Assembly: GCA_001897425.1 (NCBI GenBank)
Contig: MKSW01000033.1
Coordinates: 292,717 to 356,716 of the forward strand
From: Actinobacteria bacterium 69-20
GTDB taxonomy: Bacteria; Actinomycetota; Actinomycetes; Mycobacteriales; Nakamurellaceae
Reading direction: 5' to 3'
Length of the DNA: 64,000 nucleotides
Under the pieces are notes generated by a model. It did not search any database and had not been told where the DNA came from. It saw only the letters and a list, made by a program, of their open reading frames with translations. Positions 870 to 63,661 of this stretch are shown in pieces (position 1 is the first letter of the stretch; every line of letters starts with the position of its first letter). The translations under genes were made by a program, and so were the position numbers.

Positions 870-1221
870 CCCCGCAGGTCGATTCCGTTCGGGGGGTGAA
901 CTCCGGGCCGGCGGCACACCACGACCGCAGGTGCGCCTCAAGGGTGCGCGGCGATGAGGGATCGGCCCAGCTCGCCGGAACGGCGACGAACAGCGTCATA
1001 CTCGGCCTTGCCGATATCGGAGGCCACCGCGAATTCCCGGGCCGTCGACAACCCGGCGTCGGCTGGTCGGCGGTCGGAGCGGTACCGGACGCGCCCGCGC
1101 GAGGTCGCGCATAACGTCGACATACGATGTGGCGTCAAGGGTGTCGGATGCGGGCGGGTGATCGGATGGCCACCGTGCGTGACGTCGCCGGCAACGTGAT
1201 CGCGGCGTCGGTTCGTCGGGT
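870..1221. other. Intergenic gap with one long-form motif copy
   Basis: I see no credible gene in these 352 bases. The gap holds a reverse-strand copy of the dispersed motif (core 994-1000) in its 30-base long form, 971-1000, also found at 3941-3970 and 6347-6376. The last base of the gap is the first base of another core (1221-1227) that spans the start codon of the phosphate transporter. Confidence 0.6.
971..1000 (-). repeat. 30-bp long-form dispersed motif, copy 1
   Basis: The plus strand reads CTCGCCGG, one variable base, ACGGCGACGA, then ACAGCGTCATA. The same 30 bases recur at 3941-3970 and 6347-6376 with only a few differences. Read on the minus strand the core is TATGACGCTGTTCGTCGCC. 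All three copies are intergenic. Confidence 0.8.
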
Positions 1222-2283
1222 ATGACGATCCTGCTGGTCGCCGTGGCGGTGGCATTCGCGGTCAGCATGGGCGCGCACTACACCGGCGCGTGCATGGGCA
1301 TGCCGCACGCGCTCGGCGCCGTGTCCTCGCGCGCGGCGCTATGGATCATGGCACCGCTGACGCTGCTCGGCGCGGCGCTGGCCTCGCACGGCGTGCAGCA
1401 CACGGTCGGCTTCGACCTGGTGACCCGCCCGCTGACGGTCGTGGCGGCGGTGATCGTGCTCGGCGTCGCGTTCGCGCTGACCTCGCTGTTCAACGTGCTG
1501 CGGATCCCCTCGTCCACGATCCAGATCCTGGTGTTCAGCGTGGCCGGGGCGGCGCTCGCCGGGCACGCCGGGGTGCGCTGGGGCACGATCGTCACGCTAG
1601 CCGTCGTGTGGGTGATCGCCCCGCCCGTTGCGGCGGTGGTCGGGTTCGCGGCGACTCGGGCGCTCGACCGTGTTCCGGGGATCCGCCCGCTCACCACCGT
1701 CACCGGGAGCGCCGCTGCGGTGGCCGCTGCGGTGCCTGCTGTCCCGGCTGCGACCGATGCCGAATCCGCGACCGGCGCGGAATCCGGACCCGCGACCCTG
1801 CGAGGCGCCGCGATGGTCGGGGTCGCGTTGACGGCGGTCGGCGCGGCCGCGTCGTTCACGATGGGCGCCAACGACGTCGCGAACGCCGCCGGGTCGCTGG
1901 TCGGTACCGGCACGTTCACCGCGTTGACCGCGGGCGCCGTGTGCGGAGCAGGTTTGGCCGTCGGAGTACTCACCTGGGGCCGGCCGCTACTGCGCAAGGT
2001 CGCGTTCGACATCGTCACCGTCGACCGCCCGATGGCCACCGCCGCGCAACTCGTGCAGGCCGTCGTCGTCCTCTGCGCGGTAGCGTTCGGTTTGTTCACG
2101 TCGATGAATCAAGCGCTGGTCGGGGCAATGGCCGGCGCCGGCATGGCCCGCGGCCGCCACGCCGTCAAGACCGCCAGCCTGTACGGCATCCTGCGCGGCT
2201 GGCTCATCGGCCCGGCTGCCGGGATCGCCGCCGCCTACCTGATCACCCTCGCGGTCGGCGCCGCCGGCGTTGCCGTGGCGTGA
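1222..2283 (+). CDS. PiT-family inorganic phosphate transporter
   Basis: A 353-residue polytopic membrane protein that should take up phosphate by cation symport. The second PiT signature GANDVANA is intact at residues 215-222 and is followed by GSLVGTGTF. The first half carries only a degenerate form of the signature (GAHYTGACMG near residue 17), where PiT proteins normally have GANDxANA. The two halves flank a variable cytoplasmic loop rich in Ala/Pro/Glu (about 165-195). The start chosen is ATG 1222, which lies inside the dispersed motif (CGGGTATGACG). Confidence 0.85.
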   Translation: MTILLVAVAVAFAVSMGAHYTGACMGMPHALGAVSSRAALWIMAPLTLLGAALASHGVQHTVGFDLVTRPLTVVAAVIVLGVAFALTSLFNVLRIPSSTIQILVFSVAGAALAGHAGVRWGTIVTLAVVWVIAPPVAAVVGFAATRALDRVPGIRPLTTVTGSAAAVAAAVPAVPAATDAESATGAESGPATLRGAAMVGVALTAVGAAASFTMGANDVANAAGSLVGTGTFTALTAGAVCGAGLAVGVLTWGRPLLRKVAFDIVTVDRPMATAAQLVQAVVVLCAVAFGLFTSMNQALVGAMAGAGMARGRHAVKTASLYGILRGWLIGPAAGIAAAYLITLAVGAAGVAVA

Positions 2284-3940: not shown

Positions 3941-3980
3941 CTCGCCGGGACGGCGACGAACAGCGTCATCCCCGTCATAT
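3941..3980 (-). repeat. Long-form dispersed motif, copy 2, plus a second core
   Basis: The 30-base long form is at 3941-3970 with core variant GATGACG. It is followed at once by another core in the same orientation (CGTCATA, 3973-3979). A similar double core occurs inside the DUF2339 gene at 54283-54298. The site lies between the glyoxalase-fold gene and mazE. Confidence 0.8.
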
Positions 3981-4865: not shown

Positions 4866-5296
4866 TGCAGCAGGCTACAACTTCGGTCCGACACTCCGCC
4901 GGAAACAGCTCCCGTCGGGCAAACAACGCAGGTCGCGCGGTCTGCTCGTCCGCCCTCGTTCCGTTGCGTCGTGGCGATGATCGACCGAGTATGACGATGT
5001 TCGCGGCTCACGCCGGCCGGGCGGAAATCCGCTCGCCCGAGCCCGGGACGGCCGCCGAATGACACCGGCACGGGGCGCAGGCCCGGGGTATCGAAAGGGC
5101 GCTGGCCAGAGCAGCGCCGGCCGAAGCGGCACTGGCCGAAGCGGCGATCGAGGCGTTATAGTTCCCGATCGCGGCACGCGCGAGACGGCCCCGATCCGCC
5201 CGGTTCGTCCGAACCACCTGGTCCACCCGGTAAACCCGCCCCGCCCGCGCTGCCGTGGCAGTCCCCCTCCGTCGGCGCGACCATCGGGGAGGCACG
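4866..5296. other. Divergent intergenic region with a motif copy
   Basis: There is no credible gene in 431 bases between the divergent VOC and DUF2235 genes. A forward motif copy is at 4986-5006 (CGAGTATGACGATGTTCGCGG). A small direct repeat, GGCCGAAGCGG, occurs twice within about 5118-5145. The region should hold promoters for both flanking genes, but I see no clear -35/-10 pair. Confidence 0.5.
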
Positions 5297-6334: not shown

Positions 6335-6570
6335 CACATTCGCCCACTCGCCGGTACGGCGACGATCAGCGTCATATTCGTTGCGTCCCAACCTGATTCG
6401 ATGGCCTACCGCACACCGGCCGCCCCCGGAACCGTGACGGAACCGCGATCAACGACCGGGTATGACGACGTTCGCGGCTCAGGTCGACCAGGAAACCGCA
6501 CCCGGCGAGGCCACATCGAATTGCGGTCTCGCCGGGCAGGCGCACTCCGACCCCCCTTCACACACCCGGC
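6335..6570. repeat. Inverted pair of dispersed motifs between convergent genes
   Basis: The gap between two convergent genes carries a reverse long-form copy (6347-6376) and a forward copy (6458-6478, CGGGTATGACGACGTTCGCGG), arranged tail-out as an inverted pair about 85 bases apart. The arms could pair in RNA from either strand, so the site may serve as a loose bidirectional terminator. No gene is visible. Confidence 0.6.
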
Positions 6571-8440: not shown

Positions 8441-9880
8441 TCAGTGTCGCAGGCCGGCGCGCCCGCGTAGTGCGGCGAGGATTCCAGCAGCCGCCGCGAC
8501 CGCCGCGAGAAACCATGCGGCAGCGGTGAAACCGCCCACGACGAGGTCCGGGGAGTGCGGGTTCTCGCCGGCGATGGCCCCGAACACCAACCCGGTGAAC
8601 GCCAGCCCCATCGCGGTGCCCATGCCCCGGGTCATGTTCAACACACCGGCGGCGACCCCCGACCGGTCGGGCGGCGCGGCCGCCATGATCGCGGCATTGT
8701 TCGGCGGGGTGAACAGCCCCATGCCGATGCCGAGCAGAACGAGCCCTGAAAGGAACATCGTCATACTCGATCCGAGAAGCGCGAGACCGACCAAAGCGGC
8801 TGCGGACAGCGCCATCCCGGCCACGGTCAGCGGGCGCGCGCCGATCCGGTCGGCCCACCGCCCCGCCAGCGGCGCGGTCAGGCCGAGCAGCACCGGCATC
8901 ACCGTGAGCTCCACACCGGCGCGGCCGGGACCCTCGTGCAGGGCGCGCTGCAGGTAGAACGGCACCACGAACAGCACCCCGAACATCACCAGGTAGGACA
9001 GCAACCCGCTGGCGATCCCCGCCGAGAACGGCACCCGGCTAAACAGTGCGAGATCGAGCATCGGGTGCGCGGCGCGGCGCTGCCGGGCAAGGAAAATTAT
9101 GGCGAGCGCGACCGCGAGGGCGAACAGGCCGAGGATCAGCGGGGAAGTCCAGCCGGCGTCGTTGCCCAGCGAGATCCCGGCGAGCAGCGCCACCACCGCC
9201 GGGAAGAACAAGGCGAGCCCCCACCAGTCGAACTGGGTGCGGCGGGCCAGGTTTCGCGAGCGCGGGATGAAGAACCAGCCGAGCGCCACGCCCAGGAGGC
9301 CCATCGGCACGTTGACCCAGAAGATCCACCGCCAGCCGCCCGCCGCCACCAACAGACCCCCGACCGTCGGCCCGAGCGCCAAGCCGAGCGCCTGCGCCGC
9401 GCCCTGGATCCCGATACCGCGACCGAGATTGTCGGGCGGCATCGCGAGATAGATGATCGCGACGCTGTTCGCCTGCAGCATCGCGGCGCCGATCGCCTGC
9501 AACCCGCGAAACACATCGAGCATGACGAGGTTCGGCGCGAACCCGCACAAGGCGGAGCCGACGATGAACACCGCAAAACCGTAGGTGTACAGCAACTTTC
9601 GGCCGACCATGTCCGCGAGCCGGCCCACCGCCGTCACCAACGCGACCAACACCAATAGATACGTGAGACCCACCCACGTCACCGCACCGATGCTCGCCCG
9701 GAACTCCTGCTCCAACGCGGGAAAAGCGAGAGTCACGATGCTCGCATCCAACTGCCCCATGAACGCGCCGATACACACCGTGCCCACCGCGAACCAGTGC
9801 GCGTTCGGATGGTCCCGGATGGCGGCGGGCCGGGCGGGTTCGGTGGTCAGGCCGCTCCGGATCCGGCGCCAATCGGGCAT
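8441..9880 (-). CDS. MFS drug/proton antiporter, DHA2 (14-TM) type
   Basis: A 479-residue permease of the EmrB/QacA branch, expected to export drugs or metabolites against protons. It shows [16 protein letters not shown] in the first helix, the loop motif [16 protein letters not shown], and the antiporter segment [13 protein letters not shown]. About 14 hydrophobic segments can be counted. The start is set at ATG 9880 ([10 protein letters not shown]). A longer frame to 10015 runs through the hairpin at 9942-10003 and is unlikely to be translated. One motif copy lies inside the gene (8759-8765). The gene is divergent from the glycosylase. Confidence 0.9.
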
Positions 9881-12352: not shown

Positions 12353-12576
12353 GCGCCGACGGTACGAACTCGCGCGGCGCCTGCCCATCCGCAAAGTGCG
12401 CCAACTCCCGGATCATCACCCGTGCGGCAACGACGGCAACGACGACGCAACGCCGATCCGCCTGCCACCCGGATATGACGCGGTTCGCGGCCCCCGGCCG
12501 AACGGCGAACATCACGCATCACCCGACCTCGGCCTACCGTGGGCGGAGGCAGTCCCGTCGAGCCGGAGGTGCCACG
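12353..12576. other. Divergent intergenic region with a motif copy
   Basis: 224 bases between the lipoprotein start and a small frame on the other strand. A forward motif copy is at 12469-12490 (CCCGGATATGACGCGGTTCGCGG). Nothing else is recognisable. Confidence 0.5.
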
Positions 12577-13399: not shown

Positions 13400-13485
13400 T
13401 CGCTGCGAGTATGACGTCATTCTCCGCACCGCCCGTGCGGCTTACCCTGGAGCGGAGGGCCTGTGCCTACCGGGGAGAGTTGATC

Positions 13486-18464: not shown

Positions 18465-19981
18465 GCCGCACCCCCAGCAGTGTGACCCTCGGCGAGCGTG
18501 TTCAGCACCGTGATCCCGCGGAACCGCGCCGACGGGCATCCGTGCGAGACCGGCGCCACCTGCCCGGGCTGTCCCTTGCCGCAGTTGAACGCCCCGCCGA
18601 GAACATACGTCGATGGCCCGCCGACGGCGTCCATAGCCCCCCAAAAGTCGGTAGTCGTTGCCTGGTAGGCGATATCGCGCAGCTGACCGTCCAACTTCCC
18701 GGCACGGATGCGGTAGAAGCGCTGCCCGGTGAACTGGAAGTTGTACCGCTGCATGTCGATCGACCAGGACTTGTCGCCGACGATGTAGATGCCGTCATCG
18801 ACGCCCGCGATCAGGTCGTCCGTCGAGCCGCCCGAAGGGTCGGGTTGCAGGGACACGTTGGCCATCCGCTGGATCGGAATGTTCCCCGGCGAATCCGCGT
18901 AGGCGCACCCGTTCGACCGATCCAGCCCGAGCTTCCGCGCGAACACCCGGTCCACCTGGTAGCCCACCAGCACGCCGTCGCGGATCAGGTCCCACTGCTG
19001 GGCGGCCACGCCGTCGTCGTCGAAACCCACCGTCGCGAGGCCGTGCACGGCATTGCGGTCCCCGGTAACGTTCATGACGGCCGAACCGTATCGCAGCGAC
19101 CCCAGCTTGTCCGGGGTCGCGAAAGACGTTCCGGCATAAGCGGCCTCGTAGCCGATCGCCCTGTCGTACTCGGTGGCGTGGCCGATCGATTCGTGGATCG
19201 TCAGGAAGAGGTTGGACGGGTCGATCACCAGGTCGTACCGGCCCGGTTCGACGGACGGCGCCTTCGTCTTCTCGGCCAGCGTGTCGGCGATCACCGGGAT
19301 CTCCGCGTCGAAGTCCCAGCCGCCGGTGACGTACTCCCACCCGCGACCCGCCGGCGGGGCGAGCGACTTCATCGTCTCGAACCCGCCGGAGTCGGCATTC
19401 ACCGCGATCGCCTGCAGTTCGGGCTGCAGCCGTACCCGCTGCTGGGTGGTGGTCGTCCCCGCGGTATCCGCGTAGAAAGTGTTCTCCTTGACGCAGTGCA
19501 CCGAGGCCACCGTGTGCGTCACGCCGTCGCGAGCCAGCAGCCGCTCGGACCGGTCCAGCAGCAGCCCGACCTTCTCCGACGCGGGCACCGCGAACGGATC
19601 GACGTCATAATCGCTGACCCATATCGCGTCGTGGTAAACGGGTTCCGGAGCGCGCTCGACCCGTTCGGCGACCACACCGGCGAGCGCCCGCGCGATCTCG
19701 ACGGCCTGGTGGGCGGTCGCGGCGGCGGCGTCGGGGGTGGCCAGCACCGAGGCGGCGAAGCCCCAGACGCCGTCCACGATCACGCGCACCGCGTATCCCG
19801 TGGTCACGGCCTCGGTCGCCGCCTGCACCGCCGTATCCCGGACGGCGAGCATCGAGGTCTGCAGCCGGTGGAAGCGGAAATCGGCGAATGAGGCGCCGGA
19901 CGAGCGGGCGGCCGCGAGCGCTGCGTCGGCCAGCACGCGGAGCGGCAGGGCCGTAAACGATGCGTCGACGGAAGGTGACAT
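18461..19981 (-). CDS. tldD: TldD-type metallopeptidase, catalytic subunit
   Basis: 506 residues. The zinc motif HESIGH (His263, Glu264, His268) lies in LFLTIHESIGHATEYDRA, with downstream RMANVSLQP and GIYIVGDKSWSID typical of TldD. With the adjoining TldE it should form a chamber that degrades peptides. The target here is unknown because no RiPP cluster is in view. The start is ATG 19981 (MSPSVDASFT), preceded by GGTGA-type context; the frame continues open upstream but looks non-coding. Confidence 0.93.
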   Translation of the reverse strand: MSPSVDASFTALPLRVLADAALAAARSSGASFADFRFHRLQTSMLAVRDTAVQAATEAVTTGYAVRVIVDGVWGFAASVLATPDAAAATAHQAVEIARALAGVVAERVERAPEPVYHDAIWVSDYDVDPFAVPASEKVGLLLDRSERLLARDGVTHTVASVHCVKENTFYADTAGTTTTQQRVRLQPELQAIAVNADSGGFETMKSLAPPAGRGWEYVTGGWDFDAEIPVIADTLAEKTKAPSVEPGRYDLVIDPSNLFLTIHESIGHATEYDRAIGYEAAYAGTSFATPDKLGSLRYGSAVMNVTGDRNAVHGLATVGFDDDGVAAQQWDLIRDGVLVGYQVDRVFARKLGLDRSNGCAYADSPGNIPIQRMANVSLQPDPSGGSTDDLIAGVDDGIYIVGDKSWSIDMQRYNFQFTGQRFYRIRAGKLDGQLRDIAYQATTTDFWGAMDAVGGPSTYVLGGAFNCGKGQPGQVAPVSHGCPSARFRGITVLNTLAEGHTAGGAA

Positions 19982-47389: not shown

Positions 47390-47629
47390 GGCAACCCCGG
47401 CGTCCGCGGGCGAGTGCCTGCCCCCGCGCGCCGATGCGCCAGGCGGAGCCCCAACACGAACGGCGTCATACGCGATCCGCCCATGACGACATTCTACAAT
47501 CAACTTCCATTGCGTAAACAATGCGAGCGAGCCACGGCGGTCCGCGCCCGCACGGTGTCAGTGCCCGCGCGGGCCGTATCCTGAGGACGGAATCTTTCCT
47601 CATCTCTCTGCGCTGGTAGGGGCTCGAAC
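47390..47629. other. Divergent intergenic region
   Basis: 240 bases between patatin and permease genes with one reverse motif copy (CGAACGGCGTCATACGCG, 47457-47474). An AT-rich patch (47488-47520) may contain a promoter. No gene recognised. Confidence 0.4.
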
Positions 47630-48755: not shown

Positions 48756-50270
48756 TCAGAAGGCGTATCGCCCGGCGCGGCGGGCGAGCCGTTGGCTCTC
48801 CGGGCGGGTCGACAGGACCGCGATCTCCTGGGCCAGCACGGCACCCATCCGCCGGGCGAACGCCGCCGGCTCGTCGGCCGCGTCGTCATGCTCGGGCACC
48901 AGCCGGTCGACGATCCCGCGCCGGCGCATATCCACCGCTCGGATCTGCTGCGCCGCGGCCATCTCCGCCGCGAATGACGGGTCGCCGCGGTGCACGATCG
49001 CCGACGCGCCCTCCGGCGGAAGCGGCGAGAGCCACGCGTGCCGGGCCGCGATCACCCGGTCGGCCGGGAGCAGCGCCATGGCGCCGCCACCCGAGCCCTC
49101 GCCGAGCAACACGCACACGGTCGGCGCCGGCAGCGCGACGAGATCCGCCAGACAGCGCGCGATCTCGCCGGCCAGGCCACCCTCCTCGGCCTCCTGGGAC
49201 AGCGCCGCGCCGGGGGTGTCGATCACCGAGACCAGCGGCAGATCCAGTTCGTCGGCCAGGCGCATGCCGCGCCGCGCGACCCGCAGCGCCTCCGGGCCGA
49301 GCGGGCCGTTCTTGCCCTGCCAGGCGCGATCCTGGCCGAGCAGCACGCACGGCATCCCGGAGAACCGCGCGAGCACCAGCATCAGCCCGGGCTGCGCCTC
49401 GCCCTGGCCGGTGCCGTTCAGCGGCACCACGTCGGTCGCGGCGAAGCGCAGCAGCTCGCGCACGCCGGGGCGCTCCGGCCTGCGCGTCCGCCGGATCGAC
49501 TCCCACGCGGACTCCTCCGGCTGCTCCTCCTCCGCGGCGGCGTCGACGGGCGGCATGCCCCGGCGGCGGGCACTGAGCACCGTGAGCGCGCGGGACGCGA
49601 TCTCCGGCAAGCGGTGCGCCGGCAGCACTGCGTCGAGAAGGCCGTGCCGCAACAGGTTCTCGGCCTGCTGCACCCCGGGCGGGAAGGGCTTGTTGTACAG
49701 CGCCTGGAAGACCTTGGGCCCGAGGAAGCCGATCAGCGCGCCCGGCTCGCCGACCGTCACATGCCCGAGCGACCCCCACGAGGCGAACACCCCGCCGGTG
49801 GTGGGATGCCGCAGGTACACCAGATACGGCAGGCCGGCGGCGCGATGCGCGGCGATCGCGTCGGTGATCCGCACCATCTGCACGAACGCCGCGGTGCCCT
49901 CCTGCATCCGCGTTCCGCCGGATGCGGTGGCGGCCAGCAGCGGCAGACCCTCGGCCGTCGCGCGCCGGATAGCGGCATCCAGCCGGTCCGCCGCGGCGAT
50001 GCCGATGGACCCCGCTAGGAAGCGAAACTCGTTGGCCACCACGGCAACCCGGAATCCCCGGATCGTGCCGGAGCCGGTGAGGATCGCCTCGTCGACGCCG
50101 GACTTCTCCTCCGCCGCGCGGATGTCCGCCAGGTACTCCGGGTCGAGATCGTCCGGCCGCACGATCGGCGAGTCCCAGCTGACGAACGATCCCGCGTCCA
50201 GCACGGTGTCGATCAACTCGGGCGCGGACAGCCGAGGAGGCTTCCCGGCCTCGGCCGCGGATGTCGTCAT
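48756..50270 (-). CDS. accD3: Acyl-CoA carboxylase carboxyltransferase subunit, AccD3-like
   Basis: 504 residues containing both halves of a carboxyltransferase. The first half has ATASGGTRMQEGTAAFVQM and YLRHPTTGGVFASWGSLGH. The second has SVIDTPGAALSQEAEEGGLA, then EGSGGGAMALLPADRV and PPEGASAIVHR. The layout is that of mycobacterial AccD3, whose physiological acyl-CoA is unclear. Its ATG lies in a motif copy (GAGTATGACGACATCC) and overlaps the CoA-transferase stop by 4 bases. No biotin carboxylase subunit is nearby. Confidence 0.9.
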   Translation of the reverse strand: MTTSAAEAGKPPRLSAPELIDTVLDAGSFVSWDSPIVRPDDLDPEYLADIRAAEEKSGVDEAILTGSGTIRGFRVAVVANEFRFLAGSIGIAAADRLDAAIRRATAEGLPLLAATASGGTRMQEGTAAFVQMVRITDAIAAHRAAGLPYLVYLRHPTTGGVFASWGSLGHVTVGEPGALIGFLGPKVFQALYNKPFPPGVQQAENLLRHGLLDAVLPAHRLPEIASRALTVLSARRRGMPPVDAAAEEEQPEESAWESIRRTRRPERPGVRELLRFAATDVVPLNGTGQGEAQPGLMLVLARFSGMPCVLLGQDRAWQGKNGPLGPEALRVARRGMRLADELDLPLVSVIDTPGAALSQEAEEGGLAGEIARCLADLVALPAPTVCVLLGEGSGGGAMALLPADRVIAARHAWLSPLPPEGASAIVHRGDPSFAAEMAAAQQIRAVDMRRRGIVDRLVPEHDDAADEPAAFARRMGAVLAQEIAVLSTRPESQRLARRAGRYAF

Positions 50271-51730
50271 ACTCGGTCACCTTCGTTCGCGGCGACGCCC
50301 AACCAATCGAGCACGGCCGCGGTGTGCTGGCCGAGCAGCGGCGGGGCGAGATGATCGCGGTGCCATTCGGAGCCGTCGCCGTCGAAGAACCGCAGTGGCG
50401 GACCGGGTAGTTCGACCGTGCCGAGCACCGGATGGTCGACGTCGATCAGCAGGCCCTGCGACCTCGTTTGCTCCCACTCGTAGACCTGCTGCAGGTTCTT
50501 GACCTGCCCGGACGGCACGCCGATCTCGTCGAGTTTGGCGAGCAGATCGCGGCAGGTGTATCCGGCGAACGCGGCGTCGACGGCGGCCCGCACGGCGGCG
50601 GCGTTCCGCACCCGGTCCGCGTTGGTGGCGAAGCCGTCCGCGTCGACGGGCAGGCCGAACGCCGGGGCGAACTTCTGCCACAGGCCCTCCGAGCCGATGG
50701 AAATCTGCACGGCGCCGTCGGACGCGTGGAACAGGCCGTAGGGGCAGATCGAGGGATGGTGCGGCCCTTGCGCTTTCGGGATTTCGCCGGCCACGGTCCA
50801 GCGGGTGCCCTGGTAGGCGTGCACGCCCACGACGGCGGCGAGCAGCGAGGTGCGCACCAGGCCGCCCTTCCCGGTGATCGACCGCTCGTGCAGCTTGCCG
50901 AGTACGCCGAACGCGCCGTACATGCCGGAGAGCAGGTCGGAGATCGGCACGCCCATCTTGGTCGGGGTCTCCGGGTCGGGGCCCGTCATCGACATGAGAC
51001 CGCCTTCGCCCTGGGCGATCTGGTCGTAGCCGGCGCGGCCGCCCTCGGGCCCATCGTGGCCGAAGCCGGAGATCGAGAGCACCACCAGGCCGGGGTTCAG
51101 CTCCATGAGCCGCGCGAGGGGGAAGCCGAGCCGGTCGAGCACACCGGGCCGGAAGTTCTCCAGCAGCACATCGGACCGCCGCACCAGCTCGGTGAGAGCC
51201 GCGACACCGAGATCGCTCTTCAGGTCCAGCGCGACGGATTCCTTGTTCCTGTTGCAGGACAGGAAGTATGTGGAGATCGGGTCGGTGTTCGTGTCGCTGT
51301 CCGCGTTGGTGCCGGTGCCCCTGTCGCTGCCCCTGTCGTCGCCCTGGGCGCGATCGGCAGCTGCGGCCTCCGTATCGCCGGAAGAATCGCCTATGACGTT
51401 GTTCCGGGCCGCACCCCCGGCGGCCCCGGTGACCCCGTCGGCCCCCTCCGTGCCGGCGCCCGCTGCCGCGACGGCTCGGCGCGCGGCCACATCCGCGGCT
51501 GCACCGCGACGCCGCTCCGCAAGCTCCGCTGCTGTACCACGGCGCCGCTCCGCAAGCTCCGCTGCGGTGACGAACGGCGGCCCCCAGCCACGGGTGTCGT
51601 CCCCGCGGCCGGGCGTCTCGATCTTGATCACGCGGGCACCGAGGTCGCCGAGCATCATGGCGGCGTGCGGCCCCGCCAGGGCCCGGGTCAGGTCCAGCAC
51701 GGTGATATCGGACAGCGGGCCTGCACTCAC
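50267..51730 (-). CDS. CoA-transferase family III (CaiB/BaiF) with an inserted segment
   Basis: 487 residues. CaiB marks: LDLTRALAGPHAAMMLGDLG, IKIETPGRGDDTRGWGPPF, SCNRNKESVALDLKS, and GYDQIAQGEGGLMSMTG with the catalytic aspartate. Family members pass from the GPPF region directly to YFLSCNRNK. Here residues 55-151 are an added Ala/Arg/Gly/Asp-rich stretch, including two tandem TAAELAERRRG units (about 51500-51568) and a motif copy (51392-51398). Such an insert in a surface loop may be tolerated. Coupled to accD3, so the pair may process an acyl-CoA. Confidence 0.9.
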   Translation of the reverse strand: MSAGPLSDITVLDLTRALAGPHAAMMLGDLGARVIKIETPGRGDDTRGWGPPFVTAAELAERRRGTAAELAERRRGAAADVAARRAVAAAGAGTEGADGVTGAAGGAARNNVIGDSSGDTEAAAADRAQGDDRGSDRGTGTNADSDTNTDPISTYFLSCNRNKESVALDLKSDLGVAALTELVRRSDVLLENFRPGVLDRLGFPLARLMELNPGLVVLSISGFGHDGPEGGRAGYDQIAQGEGGLMSMTGPDPETPTKMGVPISDLLSGMYGAFGVLGKLHERSITGKGGLVRTSLLAAVVGVHAYQGTRWTVAGEIPKAQGPHHPSICPYGLFHASDGAVQISIGSEGLWQKFAPAFGLPVDADGFATNADRVRNAAAVRAAVDAAFAGYTCRDLLAKLDEIGVPSGQVKNLQQVYEWEQTRSQGLLIDVDHPVLGTVELPGPPLRFFDGDGSEWHRDHLAPPLLGQHTAAVLDWLGVAANEGDRV

Positions 51731-51976: not shown

Positions 51977-54454
51977 TCAGCCCTGTTCATCGGGCGCCGG
52001 GCGTGGGCCTCCGACGCTGCGGAGACCCGCGCCCCCGACGCGCGACAGTGCCGCGAGGTAGGCGACGGCACCGAGCAAGAGCAGCACCCCGACCCCGATG
52101 ACGGTGATCGCGCGCGGCAACGCCTCGAGGGTGCTCGTGTCCAGGAGGAGGAGCTTCGCGACTGCCACGGCGGCGAGCCCGAGGCCACCGAGCCGAACGA
52201 TCAACCGCCGGAAACCCTGCCACAGCAGGGCCAGCGCCACGAGCGTCACGAAGATCGTCACCACGATCTGCCCGGCCTGATGCCCGGCATGGGTCGGCGA
52301 TACGGCGTATGCGAGCACCATCGTGACGGCCAGCAGCCCGTAACAGGCCACCGCGCTGCAGCCCACCAAGGTCCAGCCCATGACGGTGGTGCGGTGCTGT
52401 TCGGGCGTCACGGTGCCGGCGGGCACAGCCGTCGGCCCACGATAGGGCACATCGGCGCGGTCGGCCCCGACGCGGTCCGTCCCGTCGTGTGCGGCGGCGA
52501 CCCGGACAGCAGTCACCCGTGCTGCTGTCACTCGTGCGACGGCCCACCAGGCGGCAAAGCACATGGCGATGACGCAGATGCCGCCCGGCAGCACCACGGT
52601 CCAGCCGCGCATCAGCAGACCGCCGCCGTCCACGAGCCCGGGCGCTGGCCAGCCCAGCAGATCGGATGGGTGCAGGGCGGGCCCCGCCGCGAGCAGGGCG
52701 ACGCCCGCCGCGGCGAGAGCCGGTGCGATGAGCCAGGTGAGCCGCTCGACGGCCACGATCACCAGGATCACCGTCGCCAGCACGACCCACGACACGCTGC
52801 GGGCATCCCCGCCCAGCAGCCGTAGCAGCGAGACGCCCGCGAGCGCGATCGTCCCGCACCATGCGACGACGCGGGTCGAGGTATGTGCCAGCGGCGCGTG
52901 CCGCCCGCTCGCCCACGCCACGATGGCGAAGAGCACCGTGAGCACCGCCGAGATCATGCCGGCGGTCAGATTCTGTACCCCCGCCGGCTCGACCACCACG
53001 AGCGCAACGGCGAGCAGCCCGGCACCGATCGACAGCGAGACCGTGGCCACCGCGCTGTGCAAGCGGGCCTCGTCGCGGCGCCGATTGTGCTCGTGGAAAT
53101 CGGCGTAGTCCCGAGCGACCTGTTCCGGATCGTGCGAGCGGGGGCGCACGGGGAACGGACCTGGATCGATCGGCACACGGCCCATGGCCCAGCGGCCGAT
53201 GAACGTGGCCCACGCGATGGCCACGACCACGATCGTCAGCACGAGTCCGACAGGCGTGAATACATCGAGGGCCATGGCCATGAGGAAGGCGAAGACGGCC
53301 GCGATCCCGGCGCCCGCCCACGCGAAGATTCCGAGCCCGAGCAGCAGGCACGCCGCACCGCCGGCGACCATGACTGCCTCGAAACCGAGGACGCTCGCGG
53401 AGAACCCTCCCCCCACCACCGGAGCGAGCAGGCCGCTCACCGCGAAGGATGCGCCCGCCAGCCAAGGTTCGCGCCACGCGACCGCCATGCTCACCGCGAC
53501 GACGACGATCAACGCGGACGCGCCGTGCCCGACGAGCGGTGGAAATAGGTCGGCGAGCCGCACAGCTCCCACCACGGCCAGATACTCGACGGCAAGCCCC
53601 GTACACCCGATCGTCACGGCGAGCGTTCCGTGCGCCGGTCGGCGGTGCAGCAGAGCGGCACCGCCGACCAGAACAGCGCCGAGGACGAGGCCGATGATCA
53701 CGCGCGCGAGCGGGCCGAGGATCCCCTGTTGAGCGGCGATCACCAGCAGCAACACGATGCCGAGCACCGTGACGCCGCCGCCGACCCAGCCCAGCACCTT
53801 GAGCCCGGCGGTATCGGCCCAGGAGGCGCCTGCCTTCGGCACTGGTATCGACGCGGCCGTCGGCGCTCCGGGCGGCGCCGCGGTCGGCATCTCACCGGGA
53901 TGCGGACGGACAGTCGCGCCGGCCCAGGACGGAGACGGGGGAGGCGCACCGGGCGCGGCAACGTCCGCCGCAGCCCGATCGCCGGCCGGATGCCGCCAGT
54001 GCGGATCAGCCGGCGCCGCGGGTCTGCCCGCGGCCGGCGGCCCCGCAGCCGCACTGCCGGGCGCGCCGATCGCGCTCTTCGGCACGGCGCCCTGCGGCAC
54101 CGGCCACGGAACGGCCGGCGGCGCAAGGACCGGGCCAGGCGGAACAGGCTGCGGCGCCACGGGTATCGGCCCCGCCGTCACAGGACTGGAGGGCGGCTCA
54201 GCGCCGGGCGGCGCCGGCGCCGGCGATCGACCGATGCCCGGCCCGGGTTCGGCCGCCGGGACATCGCCCGGCCCCGGAACGTCGTCATATCCGTCATATC
54301 CGGGGACCACCGGCCCGGACGCCTGTCGCCGCGCGACCTCGTCCACACGCGCGGCGACATCGTTCAGTTGCGCGGCGAGGGCGGCCAGCGACCGTTGCAG
54401 CTCCGCCAGCTCCGTCGGGTCGACGCGCGCCGCCGGGTCGGTGCCATCGCTCAC
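51977..54454 (-). CDS. DUF2339-domain multi-pass membrane protein
   Basis: 825 residues. A short coiled coil (about 13-45, PTELAELQRSLAALAAQLND) is followed by about 190 Pro/Ala/Gly-rich residues and then some 20 or more hydrophobic segments to the end, the layout of DUF2339 proteins. Function is unknown in general. The Pro-rich part encodes a doubled motif copy (54283-54298). Start GTG 54454, preceded by GAGGGGG, is favoured over the upstream ATG 54514. Confidence 0.82.
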   Translation of the reverse strand: MSDGTDPAARVDPTELAELQRSLAALAAQLNDVAARVDEVARRQASGPVVPGYDGYDDVPGPGDVPAAEPGPGIGRSPAPAPPGAEPPSSPVTAGPIPVAPQPVPPGPVLAPPAVPWPVPQGAVPKSAIGAPGSAAAGPPAAGRPAAPADPHWRHPAGDRAAADVAAPGAPPPSPSWAGATVRPHPGEMPTAAPPGAPTAASIPVPKAGASWADTAGLKVLGWVGGGVTVLGIVLLLVIAAQQGILGPLARVIIGLVLGAVLVGGAALLHRRPAHGTLAVTIGCTGLAVEYLAVVGAVRLADLFPPLVGHGASALIVVVAVSMAVAWREPWLAGASFAVSGLLAPVVGGGFSASVLGFEAVMVAGGAACLLLGLGIFAWAGAGIAAVFAFLMAMALDVFTPVGLVLTIVVVAIAWATFIGRWAMGRVPIDPGPFPVRPRSHDPEQVARDYADFHEHNRRRDEARLHSAVATVSLSIGAGLLAVALVVVEPAGVQNLTAGMISAVLTVLFAIVAWASGRHAPLAHTSTRVVAWCGTIALAGVSLLRLLGGDARSVSWVVLATVILVIVAVERLTWLIAPALAAAGVALLAAGPALHPSDLLGWPAPGLVDGGGLLMRGWTVVLPGGICVIAMCFAAWWAVARVTAARVTAVRVAAAHDGTDRVGADRADVPYRGPTAVPAGTVTPEQHRTTVMGWTLVGCSAVACYGLLAVTMVLAYAVSPTHAGHQAGQIVVTIFVTLVALALLWQGFRRLIVRLGGLGLAAVAVAKLLLLDTSTLEALPRAITVIGVGVLLLLGAVAYLAALSRVGGAGLRSVGGPRPAPDEQG

Positions 54455-54569: not shown

Positions 54570-55397
54570 TCAGCGGTGCGTTTCGACCCAGGCGCGCCAG
54601 GTGGTCGGCGGCCGGTGCAGCAGGGCAGCGAGAACGGTGCCGTTGCCGCAGATCCCGTGCAGGTCGTAGTAGTCGAACATGGCCTGCAGCCGGGGCGGGA
54701 GGGTAGCCGCGACGATCGGGTCCCAGTGGTTTTCGACGGTCACGTTGCGGCCGAGCACCTCCGCGGCGATCTCGGCCATCTCCGCCGTGGTCAACACCTC
54801 GGGCCCGGCAAGCTCGTAGGTGGCGAACCGGTGTCGCGGGTCGGTGAGCGCGCAGGCGGCGACCTCCGCGACGTCGTCCAGCGCCACCGACGTGAACGGC
54901 GCCTGCGCGGTGTACGGCAGCGGCCAGATCCCGTTGTCCCGCACGGAATCCCAGACGCCCAGGGCATTCTCGAAATACGAGGCCGGTTGCAGAATGGTCC
55001 AGTCGAGATCGGAGGTCTGCAGCGCCGCCTCGACCTCGGCCTTGGCAAGGTGGTGCGGCATGTCGGGCGCGTACGGGTGGATCACCGAGTGGTAGACCAG
55101 GCGCGTCAGTCCGGACTGCTCACAGGCGCCCATGACGCTGTTCGCGAGCGCTACCTCGTCCGGAAACATGTTGGGCGCGATGAGGTACACCGCGTCGGTG
55201 CCCTGCAGCGCGTCGCCCACAGCCTCCGTGTCCGTGAGGTCGACGGCGACCGCCTCGGCCGCGCCCGGCACTCCGGCCGCGGCCTGCTCCGGGCGGTGCA
55301 CCAGGGCGCGCACCGACACGCCGCGGCGCGAGAGTGCCGCTGTCACGGCGCGTCCCGTCTTGCCGGCCGCACCGGTCACGGCGATCAGCCCCACCAC
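54570..55397 (-). CDS. NmrA-like NAD(P)-binding protein
   Basis: 275 residues with a Rossmann start IAVTGAAGKTGRAVTAALSR (GxxGxxG) and NmrA-type features: GTDAVYLIAPN, LVYHSVIHPYAPDMPHHLAK and WTILQPASYFENAL. Members act as quinone or NAD(P)H-sensing reductases or regulators. The active-site Tyr of classical SDRs is not at the usual place. Monocistronic. A motif-like sequence CATGACGCTGTTCGCGAGC lies within it (55130-55148). Confidence 0.87.
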   Translation of the reverse strand: MVGLIAVTGAAGKTGRAVTAALSRRGVSVRALVHRPEQAAAGVPGAAEAVAVDLTDTEAVGDALQGTDAVYLIAPNMFPDEVALANSVMGACEQSGLTRLVYHSVIHPYAPDMPHHLAKAEVEAALQTSDLDWTILQPASYFENALGVWDSVRDNGIWPLPYTAQAPFTSVALDDVAEVAACALTDPRHRFATYELAGPEVLTTAEMAEIAAEVLGRNVTVENHWDPIVAATLPPRLQAMFDYYDLHGICGNGTVLAALLHRPPTTWRAWVETHR

Positions 55398-57425: not shown

Positions 57426-59563
57426 GCGGACGCTCCTTCGCTCGCGGCGCCGACGCTCGAACCGCCGTCACGCGTAATGATGAGGTTGCCGAACCGGTCG
57501 ACCTCCGCGGCGAATCCGGGGTGCACCGGTACGGTGGAGCCGAACTCCTGCACCACTGCCGGGCCCGAAACCCGGTGCCCCGCACCGAGTTTCGACCGGT
57601 CGTAGATCGTGGCCGGCCTCCACGAGTCGTAGAACACCTGCCGAGTCTCGATCACGGCCGAGGCGACATCGCCTGCCGCGGCGGCAATCTCGCGAATCTC
57701 GGGGCGCGGGATCGGCCCGATCCCGGTGGCCCGCAGGTTGACCCACTCGACCGGCTGATCGGCGCGGCCGGCGAAGTCGTATCCGTACAGAGCGTGGTGC
57801 GCGGCATGGAATGCCGCCTCGACGGCATCGGCCCACTCCGCGGTGATCGCACCGTCCGGACAGCCGACCCGCACCTCGTAGGCCTGGCCGAAGTACCGCA
57901 GGTCGGCCGTGCGCTCGAAGAGGTGATCGGAGTCCGCGAATCCCTCCAGACGCAGCGCGTCCGCGGCCTTGCCGGTGAGGTCGGCGTAGATGGCGCCGAC
58001 CGCGGCCAGGTCGAGCGAATCGTGTCGCGCGACATACGTTTGCACGTAATCATTCCGGACGTCCACGGTGAGCAGCCCGTAGGCCGACACGTTGCCGGGA
58101 TTCGGCGGGACGAGCACCGCGGGCAGGTTCAGGATGTCCATCAGCCGGCACGCGAGCAGCGACCCGGAGCCGCCGAACGTCACCATCGGGAAGTCCCGCA
58201 CGTCCAGGCCGCGTTTCACCGTCACCTGGCGCAGCGCATTCGCCTGGTTCCACGCGGAGATCTCGAGAATGCCTGCCGCGCAGGCTTCCAGCTCCAGATC
58301 GAGTTTCGCGGCGAGCTCCGTCATACCCGATGTCGCGGCATCGATGTCGAGCGGAATCTCTCCACCCAACAGGTGCGGCGGAATACGGCCGAGCACCAGG
58401 TGCGCGTCGGTGATCGTGGGTTCGGTGCCGCCCTTGCGGTAGCACAGCGGACCGGGGTCGGCGCCGGCGGACTGCGGGCCGACCTTGAGCGTGCCCTCCG
58501 GCGAGATCCAGCCGATGGAACCGCCGCCCGCGCCGACGGTCACCACGTCGATCATCGGGATGCGCGACGGGTACGGGCCCACCCGGCCCTCGGTGGTGAG
58601 CGACGGCCGGCTGTCCTGGATCACGGTGACGTCGGTCGAGGTGCCACCGCCGTCGCAGGTCACCACGGACGGGTATCCGGCCTTCGCGGCGATCACCGCG
58701 GCGCCGAGCGCACCGGCCGCAGGACCCGATAGCACCGTCGTGATCGGTTGGTGCACCACCTCTTCCGCCGACAGCACCCCGCCGTTGGACCGCATGATGG
58801 AGAACGGGATGTGCCGGCCAGGGTCGAGTTCGGCGAGCCGCGCGGAGATGTTCGCGACGTAGGCGGCGACCTTCGGCTTGACGGACGCATCGACCAGGGT
58901 CGTCATCGACCGCTCGTATTCGCGGTATTCGCGTAACACCTGACTGGACAGCGACACGACCGCCTCCGGCATGATCTCGCGGATCACGTCCCGCATGGCG
59001 CGCTCGTGCGCGTCGTTCGCGTAGGAATGCAGCAGGCAGACGCCGAGCGTCGTGATCCCCTCGGCCTGGAAGGCCTCGACGGCGGCGCGCGCGGACTCCC
59101 GGTCGAACGGCCGGATCTCGTTGCCACGGAAGTCGAGTCGCCCGCCGACGGTGCGTACCCGGTCCGCCGGCACGATGCGCGGCGGCTTCACCCAGAAATA
59201 CGAGTTGCCGTATCCGTCGGGCACCGACTGGCGCGCGATCTCCAGCACGAACTCGAACCCCTCGGTGGTGATGAACCCGAGATCGCCGACCTTGCCCTCC
59301 AGGAGCTGGTTCGTGGCGACCGTGGTGCCGTGCGAGATGGACTCGATATCGGCGGGCGTCGCCCCGATCTGGCCGAGGATCTTGTCGATGCCGGTCAGGA
59401 AGCCCTCGGCTGGGTTGGCCGGCGTCGATGGCGTCTTCGTGGTGGCGAGCGCGCCGGTGATCGTGTCCACCGCGACGATGTCGGTGAACGTGCCGCCGGT
59501 GTCCACGCCGATCCGGACGTGCCCGGTGGCCCGCCCGGTGTGGATCTGCTGCTCAGGGTTCAC
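57422..59563 (-). CDS. Hydantoinase/oxoprolinase A subunit
   Basis: 713 residues. The N-terminal ATP-binding phosphate loop IGVDTGGTFTDIVAVD, ISHGTTVATNQLLEGK, a central PSVVTCDGGGTSTDVTVIQD and DVVTVGAGGGSIGWI are those of HyuA/OplAH-type enzymes. It pairs with HyuB downstream. The substrate of the pair is not predictable; 5-oxoproline, hydantoins or carboxylation of small ketones are family options. Start GTG 59563 behind GAGAGGGA; a frame to 59677 is open but crosses a motif copy. Confidence 0.92.
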   Translation of the reverse strand: MNPEQQIHTGRATGHVRIGVDTGGTFTDIVAVDTITGALATTKTPSTPANPAEGFLTGIDKILGQIGATPADIESISHGTTVATNQLLEGKVGDLGFITTEGFEFVLEIARQSVPDGYGNSYFWVKPPRIVPADRVRTVGGRLDFRGNEIRPFDRESARAAVEAFQAEGITTLGVCLLHSYANDAHERAMRDVIREIMPEAVVSLSSQVLREYREYERSMTTLVDASVKPKVAAYVANISARLAELDPGRHIPFSIMRSNGGVLSAEEVVHQPITTVLSGPAAGALGAAVIAAKAGYPSVVTCDGGGTSTDVTVIQDSRPSLTTEGRVGPYPSRIPMIDVVTVGAGGGSIGWISPEGTLKVGPQSAGADPGPLCYRKGGTEPTITDAHLVLGRIPPHLLGGEIPLDIDAATSGMTELAAKLDLELEACAAGILEISAWNQANALRQVTVKRGLDVRDFPMVTFGGSGSLLACRLMDILNLPAVLVPPNPGNVSAYGLLTVDVRNDYVQTYVARHDSLDLAAVGAIYADLTGKAADALRLEGFADSDHLFERTADLRYFGQAYEVRVGCPDGAITAEWADAVEAAFHAAHHALYGYDFAGRADQPVEWVNLRATGIGPIPRPEIREIAAAAGDVASAVIETRQVFYDSWRPATIYDRSKLGAGHRVSGPAVVQEFGSTVPVHPGFAAEVDRFGNLIITRDGGSSVGAASEGASA

Positions 59564-59890
59564 GCAGGTGTCCCTCTCGTCCGTATATGACGCTGTTCGC
59601 ACGCTTCGCGTGGCGGGCCGGTTCCGGGCGATCCGGCTGCGCCGCGAACAACGCCCTACCCGATCAACCATGCCCATTCAATCGTGCCCGCGGACGGCCC
59701 AGGGACGGCAGAACCTGCCAACGGGGCGCCCGTTGATCGGTGGCTCGCTGGCTCACCTGTCGGCACCGGTCGTGGCGCGGGCAACGCTGTCGTACCTCGA
59801 TGCGATCCTGCTGGTAGTGGGCCGACGAGCTGTCGAAAGGATCGCATCTATGGCACTAGATCGCTTCCATCTATGCGACTGGAGTAATCT
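59564..59890. other. Divergent intergenic region with an inverted motif pair
   Basis: 327 bases between hyuA and hicA. A forward motif copy CGTATATGACGCTGTTCGC is at 59582-59600. A degenerate reverse copy GCCGCGAACAACGCCCTACC follows at 59641-59660, giving an inverted pair about 40 bases apart. A probable hicAB operator is at 59842-59878. No gene seen. Confidence 0.55.
59842..59878. promoter_or_regulatory. Imperfect palindrome upstream of hicA
   Basis: TCGCATCTATGG (59842-59853) faces CCATCTATGCGA (59867-59878); the ends TCGCAT/ATGCGA are perfectly symmetric and CTATG occurs on both sides. TAATCT, a -10-like box, sits just ahead of the GTG start (59891). It is likely bound by the HicB-type antitoxin. 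Confidence 0.5.
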
Positions 59891-61718: not shown

Positions 61719-63661
61719 ACCCGCACCTGCCCGTTCTGAACCGACGCCGGCGCCGACGCCGACGTGACGTCGAAGTCGACCAGCGGATGCCAGCAGGCGA
61801 GTTCCCGCTCGCCATCAGCGGTCAGCGGCGGCATCGCCTCGCGACAGGTCTGGTCGGCGAACGCGCACCGCGGCGCGAATGGGCAACCCGGTGGCATCGC
61901 GGCGGGACTCGGCGGCTGGCCAGGGATGGCGACCAGGGGCTCGTCTCGCCCCGTCTGCAAGGTGGGCACGGCCGCCAGCAACGCGGCGGTGTAGGGGTGG
62001 CAGGGTTCGGCGATCACCTCGGCGGTCGGGCCTTGCTCCACGATCCGGCCGCCGTACATGACGATCACCCGGTGGCATAGCTCGCCCACCACCGAAACGT
62101 CGTGCGAGATCAACACAACGGCCGTGCCATGCTCGGCATTCAGCGTCCGGAGCAGATCGATGATCTGCGCTTGCACGGTGACATCGAGCGCGGTGGTCGG
62201 CTCGTCGGCGATCAGCAGGGTGGGGTCGCCCATCAGCCCCATGGCGATCATGACGCGCTGGCGCATGCCGCCGGACAGCTCGTGCGGGAACTGGTCGAGG
62301 CGACGTTCAGCGGCCGTGATGCGCATGTCGGTGAGCGCCACGATCGCGCGCTCGGAAGCCTCGGCCCGCGAGAGGCCCCCGTGCACCTCGAGTTTCTCGG
62401 TCAGCTGACGCCGCAACCGCAGCGCGGGGTTGAGCGAGGTCATGGGGTCCTGGAACACCATGGCGAGGTCGGTGCCGAGCAGCCTGCGCAACCGGTCGGG
62501 CCGGACGGTCGCCACATCGGTGCCGGCGATCTCCCGCCGGCGCACCTCGACACGACCGGGATACGGCACCAGGCCGGCGGCAGCCAACGCGGTCAGCGAC
62601 TTGCCGGACCCGGACTCCCCGACGATGCCGACCATCTCGCCCGCGCCGACGGTGATGCTGACCCCCTGCACCGGCGTCACCGGAGCGCCATCCGGGCCGG
62701 GGAACGTCACGGTCAGGTCCTCCAGCCGCAGCGCGACGGCTGGACCGTCGGCCCGCGGGGCCGGGGCCGCGGGCAGGCCGCGCCCGGGCAGCAGGGAACG
62801 GCCCATCCGCCGCACCGCGCGGGCCGAGACCGACCCGGAGCGGGAGTCGAAGCCGTGGGCCAGGGACTCGCCGAGCAGGTTGAATGCCAGCCCCGTCAGC
62901 ACGATCGCGGCGCCGGCGCCGAGCGCGATGGAGGGCGTGGTGTAGATGTCCTTCAGCCCCTCGCCGAGGACCCGCCCCCAGTCGTACGCCGGCGGCTGCA
63001 CGCCGAGACCCAGGTAGCTCAGCGCGGACAGCGCGATCAGCGAGTCGCTCGCCGCCATGGTCACCGTGATCAGCAGCGGCTCGGCGATGTTCGGCAGCAC
63101 GTACCGGCGGAGAAGCGCCCAGCGGCGCACCCCCAGCACGCGCGCCGCGGCGACATAGTCCGATCCGGCGACCGCGGTGCCCAAAGTCTGTGCCAGACGG
63201 GCGAACCCGGGAGCCATCGCCAGCCCGATGGCCAGCACGGCACCCAGCGCCCCGGCACCGATCACCGTGCTGATGACCAGGGCGGTGACGATGCCGGGAA
63301 ACGCCAGCCCGATCGCGATGCCACGGCCGGCCAACCGGCGCCCCCGGGGCGGTAGTAGCCCGGCCACCGCCCCGAGCGGGAAGCCGATCAGGGACCCGAG
63401 CAGCACGGCGGCCAGCGCGAGCAACAGCGAGATACGTGCGCTGGCAAGGATCCTGGCGAGCACGTCGCGGCCGAGGGTGTCGGTGCCGAGCAGGTGGCTG
63501 GCGGAGATCCCCTGGCGTGCCTCGACGACGTTCATCGCCATCGCGCGGTCCTGCCAGACCCACGGACCGATGATCGCCACCACCACCACGATCGCCAGCA
63601 CCACCAGACCGAACACGGTCCCGGGGGCCCGCAGCATGGAGCGCACGCGACGGGAGGCCAT
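61715..63661 (-). CDS. Fused DppC-type permease and DppD-type ATPase
   Basis: 648 residues combining two subunits normally encoded separately. Residues 1 to about 285 are a permease with an N-terminal helix, RQGISASHLLGTDTLGRDVL, and the coupling loop AAARVLGVRRWALLRRYVLP. Residues about 310-640 are an ATPase with Walker A GESGSGKS, signature LSGGMRQRVMIAMGL, Walker B LLIADEPTTALD and a cysteine-containing end (CPFAPRCAFADQTC). With the flanking genes it forms a full importer membrane core; the binding protein is probably past the window edge. Confidence 0.93.
   Translation of the reverse strand: MASRRVRSMLRAPGTVFGLVVLAIVVVVAIIGPWVWQDRAMAMNVVEARQGISASHLLGTDTLGRDVLARILASARISLLLALAAVLLGSLIGFPLGAVAGLLPPRGRRLAGRGIAIGLAFPGIVTALVISTVIGAGALGAVLAIGLAMAPGFARLAQTLGTAVAGSDYVAAARVLGVRRWALLRRYVLPNIAEPLLITVTMAASDSLIALSALSYLGLGVQPPAYDWGRVLGEGLKDIYTTPSIALGAGAAIVLTGLAFNLLGESLAHGFDSRSGSVSARAVRRMGRSLLPGRGLPAAPAPRADGPAVALRLEDLTVTFPGPDGAPVTPVQGVSITVGAGEMVGIVGESGSGKSLTALAAAGLVPYPGRVEVRRREIAGTDVATVRPDRLRRLLGTDLAMVFQDPMTSLNPALRLRRQLTEKLEVHGGLSRAEASERAIVALTDMRITAAERRLDQFPHELSGGMRQRVMIAMGLMGDPTLLIADEPTTALDVTVQAQIIDLLRTLNAEHGTAVVLISHDVSVVGELCHRVIVMYGGRIVEQGPTAEVIAEPCHPYTAALLAAVPTLQTGRDEPLVAIPGQPPSPAAMPPGCPFAPRCAFADQTCREAMPPLTADGERELACWHPLVDFDVTSASAPASVQNGQVRV

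Follow-up and report, generated by a model that had tools for sequence, protein, structure and literature searches.

Dispersed through the 64-kb stretch of DNA analysed here (positions 292,717 to 356,716 of contig MKSW01000033.1 from Actinobacteria bacterium 69-20, hereafter the window) are copies of a non-palindromic motif of 17 bases with the core TATGACG, which recurs by the hundred across the genome from which the window comes, a member of the genus Nakamurella, and across that of one sister species. In the reading that we favour, with modest confidence, the motif marks self-DNA throughout the genome, in the manner of the DNA uptake sequences found in Neisseriaceae and Pasteurellaceae, and evolved separately in one Nakamurella lineage. 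It is classed here as uptake-sequence-like, and not as a proven member of that class.

Within the window, exact matches to TATGACG number 36, against 3.59 ± 2.01 in dinucleotide shuffles, none of 100 of which reached 36, and 3.5 under a third-order Markov model. An initial annotation, made from the sequence of the window, had derived an expectation of roughly three copies from base composition and had listed 34 cores, of which 33 are placed exactly; the coordinate 29826 should read 29825, and two further cores, at 408-414 (plus strand) and 19603-19609 (minus strand), had been overlooked. About 14 cores were said to extend to a longer word, and TATGACGNNGTTC indeed has 14 exact matches in the window. 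The description of sites lying both in gaps and inside genes is borne out by gene calls, made with a simple codon-score caller built for the analysis, and two of the three genes named as hosts are recognisable: aceB, a malate synthase gene (PF01274) that contains CGTGTATGACGCTATTC at 41714..41730 on the plus strand, and trmB, encoding a TrmB-like methyltransferase (PF02390), with CGGGTATGACGACATTC at 26762..26778 on the minus strand, opposite to the gene. For the name murL there is no such support: the predicted protein at 35054-36502, taken to be the one meant, has no Pfam match at 1e-5. The tolerance pattern, the restriction to one sister pair and the motif-locked hairpin described below go beyond what had been annotated.

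The check that the annotation had itself proposed, for an excess across the whole genome, was run on the 4.48-Mb window genome (designated G000) and did not overturn the claim of a genome-wide signal. The word TATGACGNNGTTC occurs 555 times there, against no occurrence of the reversed word used as a control, and its copies divide into 272 forward and 283 reverse, such that the lack of strand bias reported for the window also holds genome-wide. As judged by one protein, the closest named relatives of G000 are Nakamurella lactea and N. leprariae. Among 17 genomes of the genus, one other, the sister genome G003, is rich in the word (516 copies; reversed control 3), and the remaining 15 have 0 to 5 copies. 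Each of 44 further genomes of the order has at most six copies, and among 394 sampled genomes of the class, a set that includes G000 and not G003, G000 alone has more than 10. Aligned DNA is about 90% identical to G000 in G003 and about 65 to 84% identical in the segments of other genus members that aligned. Because the word is abundant in only these two genomes of the genus, it rose to high copy in the lineage of G000 and G003.

A dialect of the relatives' own was sought in 80-kb samples of nine Nakamurella (G001, G002, G004, G006, G011, G012, G013, G014 and G016; G005, G008, G009, G010 and G015 were left out), and no word of comparable density was found, although power was limited by the prominence of coding-biased words in the whole-sequence lists and by the small share of intergenic DNA, 7 to 13 kb per sample. 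G007 was dropped from these samples and from the background set used for variants, its top words coming from a CRISPR-like array; in its loci L191-L194, ATGTTCCCC, GTGCGGGGA and like words are repeated 60 to 76 times in 80 kb in the fashion of such arrays. A scan of IMG/VR with the extended consensus returned 10 stretches with one match each, which were taken, with no control run, as chance. In coding DNA the reversed-word control is too lenient, and counts made with a position weight matrix (PWM) in Streptomyces and other relatives exceed it too; other genomes were therefore used as background.

The anatomy of the motif is best described with the core T numbered 0, which places CG at -4 and -3 and GTTC at 9 to 12. 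The form CG..TATGACG..GTTC occurs 140 times in 1.20 Mb of G000 and is absent from a 2.20-Mb background, of which 720 kb come from nine other Nakamurella and 1.48 Mb from loci that are mostly of Streptomyces. One-letter variants at C-4, A1, T2, G3, A4, C5, G6 and C12 have 0 to 3 copies each, and the change of G-3 to T has 8. Nine positions are near-invariant (CG at -4 and -3, ATGACG, and C at 12), and the outer bases are tolerant: G9 is replaced by A in 14 copies, T10 by A in 14 and by C in 11, and T11 by C in 22. The core T itself may become G (65 copies) or C (24), and never A. From these variant counts the word is defined as CGNN[TGC]ATGACGNN[GA][TAC][TC]C. This relaxed motif, which was counted in the same G000 data on which it had been defined, has 1280 copies in G000 (control 10), or about one per 3.5 kb, and 1132 in G003 (control 9); each of the remaining genomes of the genus, 15 in number, has between 42 and 110 (controls 5 to 14). 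Cores arranged in tandem on the same strand, 9 bp apart, are seen 26 times among 1103 half-sites of G000 and G003. Compared by eye, the word differs from the known uptake words GCCGTCTGAA and AAGTGCGGT. No known structured RNA was found, the window having no Rfam match at gathering scores, and a role in sense-strand RNA was rejected on the lack of strand bias among in-gene sites.

Evidence that the motif is recognised comes from its fate between the two sister genomes, judged at sites inside 91.5 kb aligned by blastn. Of 49 relaxed sites of G000 that aligned, 39 are functional by motif pattern in G003, and in the opposite direction the same is true of 39 of 42. Difference rates are 1.35% at the nine core positions, 9.4% in the flanks and 14.9% at the four free N positions, and sixty shuffled motifs of the same make-up yielded 19 sites, of which 4 were kept. 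Substitutions account for 11 of the 13 non-conserved cases; the remaining two come from a single locus with a 9-bp tandem duplication, counted once from each genome. No insertion or deletion of a whole unit was found among the 51 distinct loci inside the blastn alignments. In a stricter and smaller comparison, of exact TATGACGNNGTTC sites over 71 kb, 7 of 11 are kept in each direction. This is the conservation pattern of a recognised site, and not that of decaying insertion scars.

A second feature is a hairpin held at a fixed distance from the motif. When G000 and G003 are pooled, a perfect stem of at least 5 bp begins exactly 14 bases past the core T at 40 of 190 intergenic relaxed sites, about a fifth, against 6.0 ± 2.2 when the downstream halves are swapped between sites; most sites are without a hairpin. 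Loops at +14 have 3 or 4 bases in 54 of 63 cases, all site classes included. The stems themselves are diverse, with 52 different sequences among 84 sites that have a stem at +13 to +15, and the stem TCGCCG/CGGCGA recurs at three sites in the window and at a fourth just beyond its left edge. With similar copies removed, intergenic sites of G000 retain the excess (27 of 120 against 4.6 ± 2.0, the highest of 500 swaps giving 11). The corresponding figure in genes is 12 of 210 against 5.0 ± 2.1, a count matched by the highest of 500 swaps (12), and so the claim rests on the intergenic sites. The stems thus vary from site to site and stay complementary, a covariation seen mainly between genes, and the hairpin is locked in position to the motif. 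Among nine hairpins aligned with G003, inspection by eye shows about four with every pair intact and the others with changed pairs but no clear compensatory double change, so that the hairpin is not essential at every site.

Placement is uneven. Of the 156 strong sites in a 1.20-Mb portion of G000, 106 lie outside genes, although coding sequence makes up 86% of it. Sites inside genes of G000 and G003 lean to the gene ends, with successive quintiles holding 42, 26, 21, 19 and 46 antisense sites and 34, 24, 28, 28 and 38 sense sites. When genes are ranked by G+C content at third codon positions (GC3), sites are scarcest in the lowest quintile (88/Mb) and reach 250 to 324/Mb in the next three. 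PWM sites taken at a low threshold, a set that includes chance coding matches, are spread almost at random, the ratio of variance to mean per 20 kb being about 1 on two long contigs and 1.8 on a short one. The longest gap without a relaxed site covers 46 kb (G000:C3:244919-291222, loci L148-L150), and the first 30 kb or so of it resemble an exopolysaccharide cluster, as judged from protein starts.

Genes for uptake machinery are present in both carriers. Type IVa pilus loci of G000 (L327) and G003 (L328) encode PilB-, PilT-, PilC- and PilM-type proteins and a small N_methyl pilin, together with a 614-aa minor pilin, a 191-aa protein and a 528-aa protein. Family scans of the locus were run on the G000 copies, in which PilT and PilM pass the NCBIfam cut-offs and PilB and PilC match below the equivalog cut-offs; the names PilN, PilO and PilW- and PilX-like are our assumption from gene order. 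The 614-aa minor pilin (L327:8932-10776) combines a weakly ComGE-like N-terminus with Ig domains, and the 528-aa protein (L327:6663-8249) has a ricin-B-type lectin domain, a pair of features that suggests an adhesive pilus tip. Relatives of the 191-aa minor pilin occur in G006 and G011, both of which are without the motif. An N_methyl protein resembling a major pilin (L327:13635-14075, L328:9434-9865) is 62% identical between G000 and G003, as against 83 to 98% for the other proteins that the two loci share. No extra gene was seen beside comEA-comEC, in a comparison with loci of the relatives that are each under 4 kb.

The motif, its distribution and tolerance, its conservation in two species, the covariation of its hairpins across sites, and pilus and com genes in both carriers are observed, and from them we infer a receptor, uptake and drive. 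A surface DNA receptor, for which a minor type IVa pilin is the most plausible candidate, would prefer double-stranded DNA with CGNN[T/G/C]ATGACGNNGTTC. Retraction powered by PilT would then draw the DNA in, ComEA and ComEC would pass one strand into the cell, and recombination would swap out the resident allele. Were copies with good sites taken up more often, sites would arise and persist by point substitution and biased replacement, a form of molecular drive, and would accumulate chiefly in DNA under little constraint, between genes and towards their ends. The hairpin would be a second module; our guess is that it either acts as a bidirectional transcription terminator joined to the tag or gives the DNA a shape for which the receptor has a preference. 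A narrower proposal, which we put forward only tentatively and consider less likely than not to be correct, is that of an independent actinobacterial uptake signal of composite kind, in which the 17-base word and the covarying hairpin 14 bases from the core T would be read together as sequence and DNA shape. Of the four ideas offered in the initial annotation, resemblance to uptake sequences is the one best supported, both by sequence features and by the uptake machinery encoded, although the favouring of one orientation within genes that would go with it is not found.

That last discrepancy is one of several that weigh against the uptake reading. Most published traits of uptake sequences are matched here, but in-gene orientation bias is not: relaxed sites inside genes number 117 sense and 118 antisense in G000, and 35 and 36 in G003. 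Dialects of the kind shown by Neisseriaceae are missing from the sampled relatives, within the limited power of the samples, and the stem is not built from the motif, whereas known uptake sequences pair with themselves into hairpins. The genetic equipment is not discriminating either. ComEC (PF03772) and a ComEA-type HHH_3 protein are ubiquitous in the genus (17 of 17 genomes), and N_methyl pilins (PF07963) occur in the same five genomes as PilT above its curated cut-off (TIGR01420), namely G000, G003, G001, G006 and G011; the last three thus have N_methyl pilin, PilT and ComEC yet lack the motif, so the machinery does not predict it. The association of motif with pilus (two of five pilus-bearing genomes, none of the 12 others) would arise by chance with a probability of about 0.07 (a hand calculation), and both carriers belong to a single sister pair. 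Relaxed sites are also patchier than random, with a coefficient of variation of gap length of 1.06 to 1.50 and 13 gaps longer than 12 kb, against an expectation of about 8.5. Nor do the data show cleanly that sites are scarce in foreign DNA, because the last third of the 46-kb empty stretch resembles ordinary housekeeping genes (by protein starts) and the highest GC3 quintile is also poor in sites (151/Mb).

The same observations bear on four other explanations. A site bound by a protein inside the cell, such as a chromosomal organiser or a Chi-like or nucleoid factor of recombination and repair, might, for example, make a nuclease pause, help a recombinase to load or give the chromosome its shape. 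Although we consider this unlikely, a strict core, occurrence on both strands, dense spread and strong conservation are all compatible with it, and the position-locked hairpin suggests recognition of a structure that could form in single-stranded or supercoiled DNA. Against it, the sites are concentrated between genes, unlike Chi; a word with nine near-invariant bases is long for Chi; and a housekeeping role would not lead one to expect confinement to a single sister pair within the genus. Per-strand counts along the two long contigs, inspected by eye, are also without obvious bias, which speaks against such a site. More doubtful is a word tied to methylation or restriction and held at high copy. 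HIP1 of cyanobacteria provides the precedent, being, according to PMC4390886, a word kept in extreme excess within a lineage alongside methyltransferases, and the core here does offer two adenines on one strand. HIP1, however, is a palindromic octamer with orphan methyltransferases, whereas the Nakamurella word is asymmetric, 17 bases long with nine near-invariant, and linked to a hairpin.

A transcription signal, either a terminator or a regulator site, is if anything a little less probable again. Stems of at least 5 bp at +14 or +15 do occur at 25 of 89 intergenic strong sites that face a gene end as compared with 5 of 33 between divergent genes, which speaks for this reading. The orientation classes of intergenic strong sites, at 21, 31, 37 and 33 against 20.4, 33.5, 33.5 and 34.7 expected, nonetheless show no preference relative to genes, in-gene relaxed sites of G000 are evenly divided (117 sense, 118 antisense), and such stems are also found at 13 of 68 in-gene strong sites. 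Least probable of the four is that the sites are remnants of a small mobile element, resembling a repetitive extragenic palindrome (REP) or a miniature inverted-repeat transposable element, that spread motif and hairpin together. REPs have a conserved sequence adjoining a hairpin and are mostly intergenic, as is the case here; some intergenic copies share a stem (the four sites with TCGCCG/CGGCGA), and the genome has other true dispersed hairpin repeats. The initial annotation had likewise listed scars of a small element among its ideas. This fits badly: the changes relative to G003, judged inside blastn alignments, are substitutions at 11 of 13 sites, the two gapped cases being the one 9-bp duplication; single-mutant decay products are nearly absent; and 52 different stems among 84, with a covariation that survives the removal of similar copies, differ from what REPs would leave, as do the many sites within genes, on both strands. 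An origin from REPs and their RAYT transposases was rejected, given that no whole-unit insertions were found inside the blastn alignments and that the Y1 transposase family PF01797 has no match in G000 or G003, its one match among the 17 genus genomes being in G016.

In the window itself (strands are marked + or -), CGAGTATGACGCTGTTC at 988..1004 (-) is accompanied by a hairpin at 972..986 (-) with a 6-bp stem, a 3-nt loop and a stem start at +14 from the core T; hairpins of the same stem and loop lengths stand at 3942..3956 (-), beside CGGGGATGACGCTGTTC at 3958..3974 (-), and at 6348..6362 (-), beside CGAATATGACGCTGATC at 6364..6380 (-). CGAGTATGACGATGTTC is found at 4986..5002 (+) and again at 8753..8769 (-), within a predicted MFS transporter gene, and CGGGTATGACGACGTTC at 6457..6473 (+) and at 24111..24127 (+), where core and GTTC are unchanged in G003. 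After CGAGCATGACGAGGTTC at 9517..9533 (+) come CGGATATGACGCGGTTC at 12470..12486 (+), with a hairpin of 5-bp stem and 3-nt loop at 12488..12500 (+), and CGAGTATGACGTCATTC at 13406..13422 (+), with one of 6-bp stem and 5-nt loop at 13424..13440 (+). CGATTATGACGTCGATC at 19597..19613 (-) lies within a PmbA/TldD-type gene. CGGGTATGACGCTGTTC occurs at 20106..20122 (+), with a hairpin at 20124..20136 (+; 5-bp stem, 3-nt loop), and at 24382..24398 (-), where G003 has the tolerated variant GTCC.

Further along, CGCTTATGACGACGCTC at 31057..31073 (-) lies within a LamB/YcsF-type gene, and its hairpin at 31043..31055 (-; 5-bp stem, 3-nt loop) is broken in G003. CGGCCATGACGAAGTTC at 31477..31493 (-) is followed by CGAGTATGACGACGTTC at 32949..32965 (+), which is changed at position 9 in G003, and by CGGAGATGACGCTGTTC at 39902..39918 (-) and CGACCATGACGAGGTTC at 44535..44551 (-). 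One MMPL-type gene contains both CGAGTATGACGGGGATC at 45597..45613 (-) and CGGATATGACGGCGATC at 45695..45711 (+), with a hairpin at 45713..45725 (+; 5-bp stem, 3-nt loop) next to the latter. CGCGTATGACGCCGTTC at 47458..47474 (-), CGCCCATGACGACATTC at 47478..47494 (+) and CGAGTATGACGACATCC at 50259..50275 (-) precede CGCCTATGACGTTGTTC at 51388..51404 (+), which lies within a CoA-transferase gene and keeps its core and GTTC in G003; the hairpin beside it at 51406..51426 (+; 7-bp stem, 7-nt loop) is changed there. At 54277..54293 (-), CGGATATGACGACGTTC has a second core in tandem 9 bp away, a duplication that is absent in G003. Then follow CGCCCATGACGCTGTTC at 55127..55143 (+), CGGGTATGACGGAGCTC at 58313..58329 (-), within a hydantoinase A-type gene, and CGTATATGACGCTGTTC at 59582..59598 (+), whose core and GTTC are unchanged in G003 and whose hairpin at 59600..59612 (+; 5-bp stem, 3-nt loop) is identical in that genome.

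Two other dispersed repeats were met in the same DNA. A 64-bp near-perfect hairpin at 27129-27192, unrelated to the motif and also present in G003, is one of 14 matches found in 1.20 Mb of G000, which are 77 to 100% identical and of which none lies wholly within a predicted gene. At about 43083-43282, units of some 81 bp, in tandem and inverted, fold into a very long hairpin; these too are present in G003, and their family gives 35 blast pieces in 1.20 Mb of G000.

Uptake sequences are described, in the literature as far as it was available, for Neisseriaceae and Pasteurellaceae. No report of one from Actinobacteria (Actinomycetota) was found in the open-licence literature, and no relevant Nakamurella paper was among the matches listed. 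A review of uptake by type IV filaments (PMC6370729) names ComP as the Neisseria pilin that prefers the DNA uptake sequence (DUS) and describes the actinobacterium Micrococcus luteus with Flp pili. PMC4322843 uses neither 'uptake sequence' nor 'sequence specific' as a term, and a survey of spaced motifs (PMC5217627) does not mention Nakamurella. If the uptake reading is correct, the actinobacterial case would be a repeated evolution of biased self-DNA uptake, and species-specific transformation would become testable in a group where little is known of it. A clean comparison is on offer, between two sister species with the tag and three congeners that have pilin and PilT genes and are without it.

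The uptake signal sequences (USS) of Pasteurellaceae share with the Nakamurella motif a long word in which the inner core is strict and a second part weaker, and a lean to gene ends, a bias that PMC2346458 also reports for them. PMC7811141 gives about one USS per kb in Haemophilus influenzae, with an inner core that is absolutely required, under-representation in new segments and molecular drive as a sufficient explanation. The Nakamurella motif differs in its unrelated sequence, its high-G+C host, the lack of an A+T-rich flank in the intergenic logo, its lower density (1280 relaxed sites in 4.48 Mb) and its lack of in-gene orientation bias, whereas PMC2346458 reports one orientation as the commoner in genes in all cases studied. 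The DUS of Neisseriaceae, whose receptor is ComP, number about 1900 in N. meningitidis and in N. gonorrhoeae according to PMC3630211, which also describes a CTG core that is invariant and needed for transformation, and placement in permissive and intergenic regions with the formation of stem-loops. They differ in sequence and in forming their hairpin from two copies; the present host is an actinobacterium and its hairpin stands beside the motif, a position-locked arrangement with no counterpart met in the uptake-sequence literature as far as that was available. The two systems have in common more than 1000 copies on both strands, a preference for intergenic DNA, an invariant core with tolerant outer bases, a link to stem-loops, and the company of type IV pilus and com genes.

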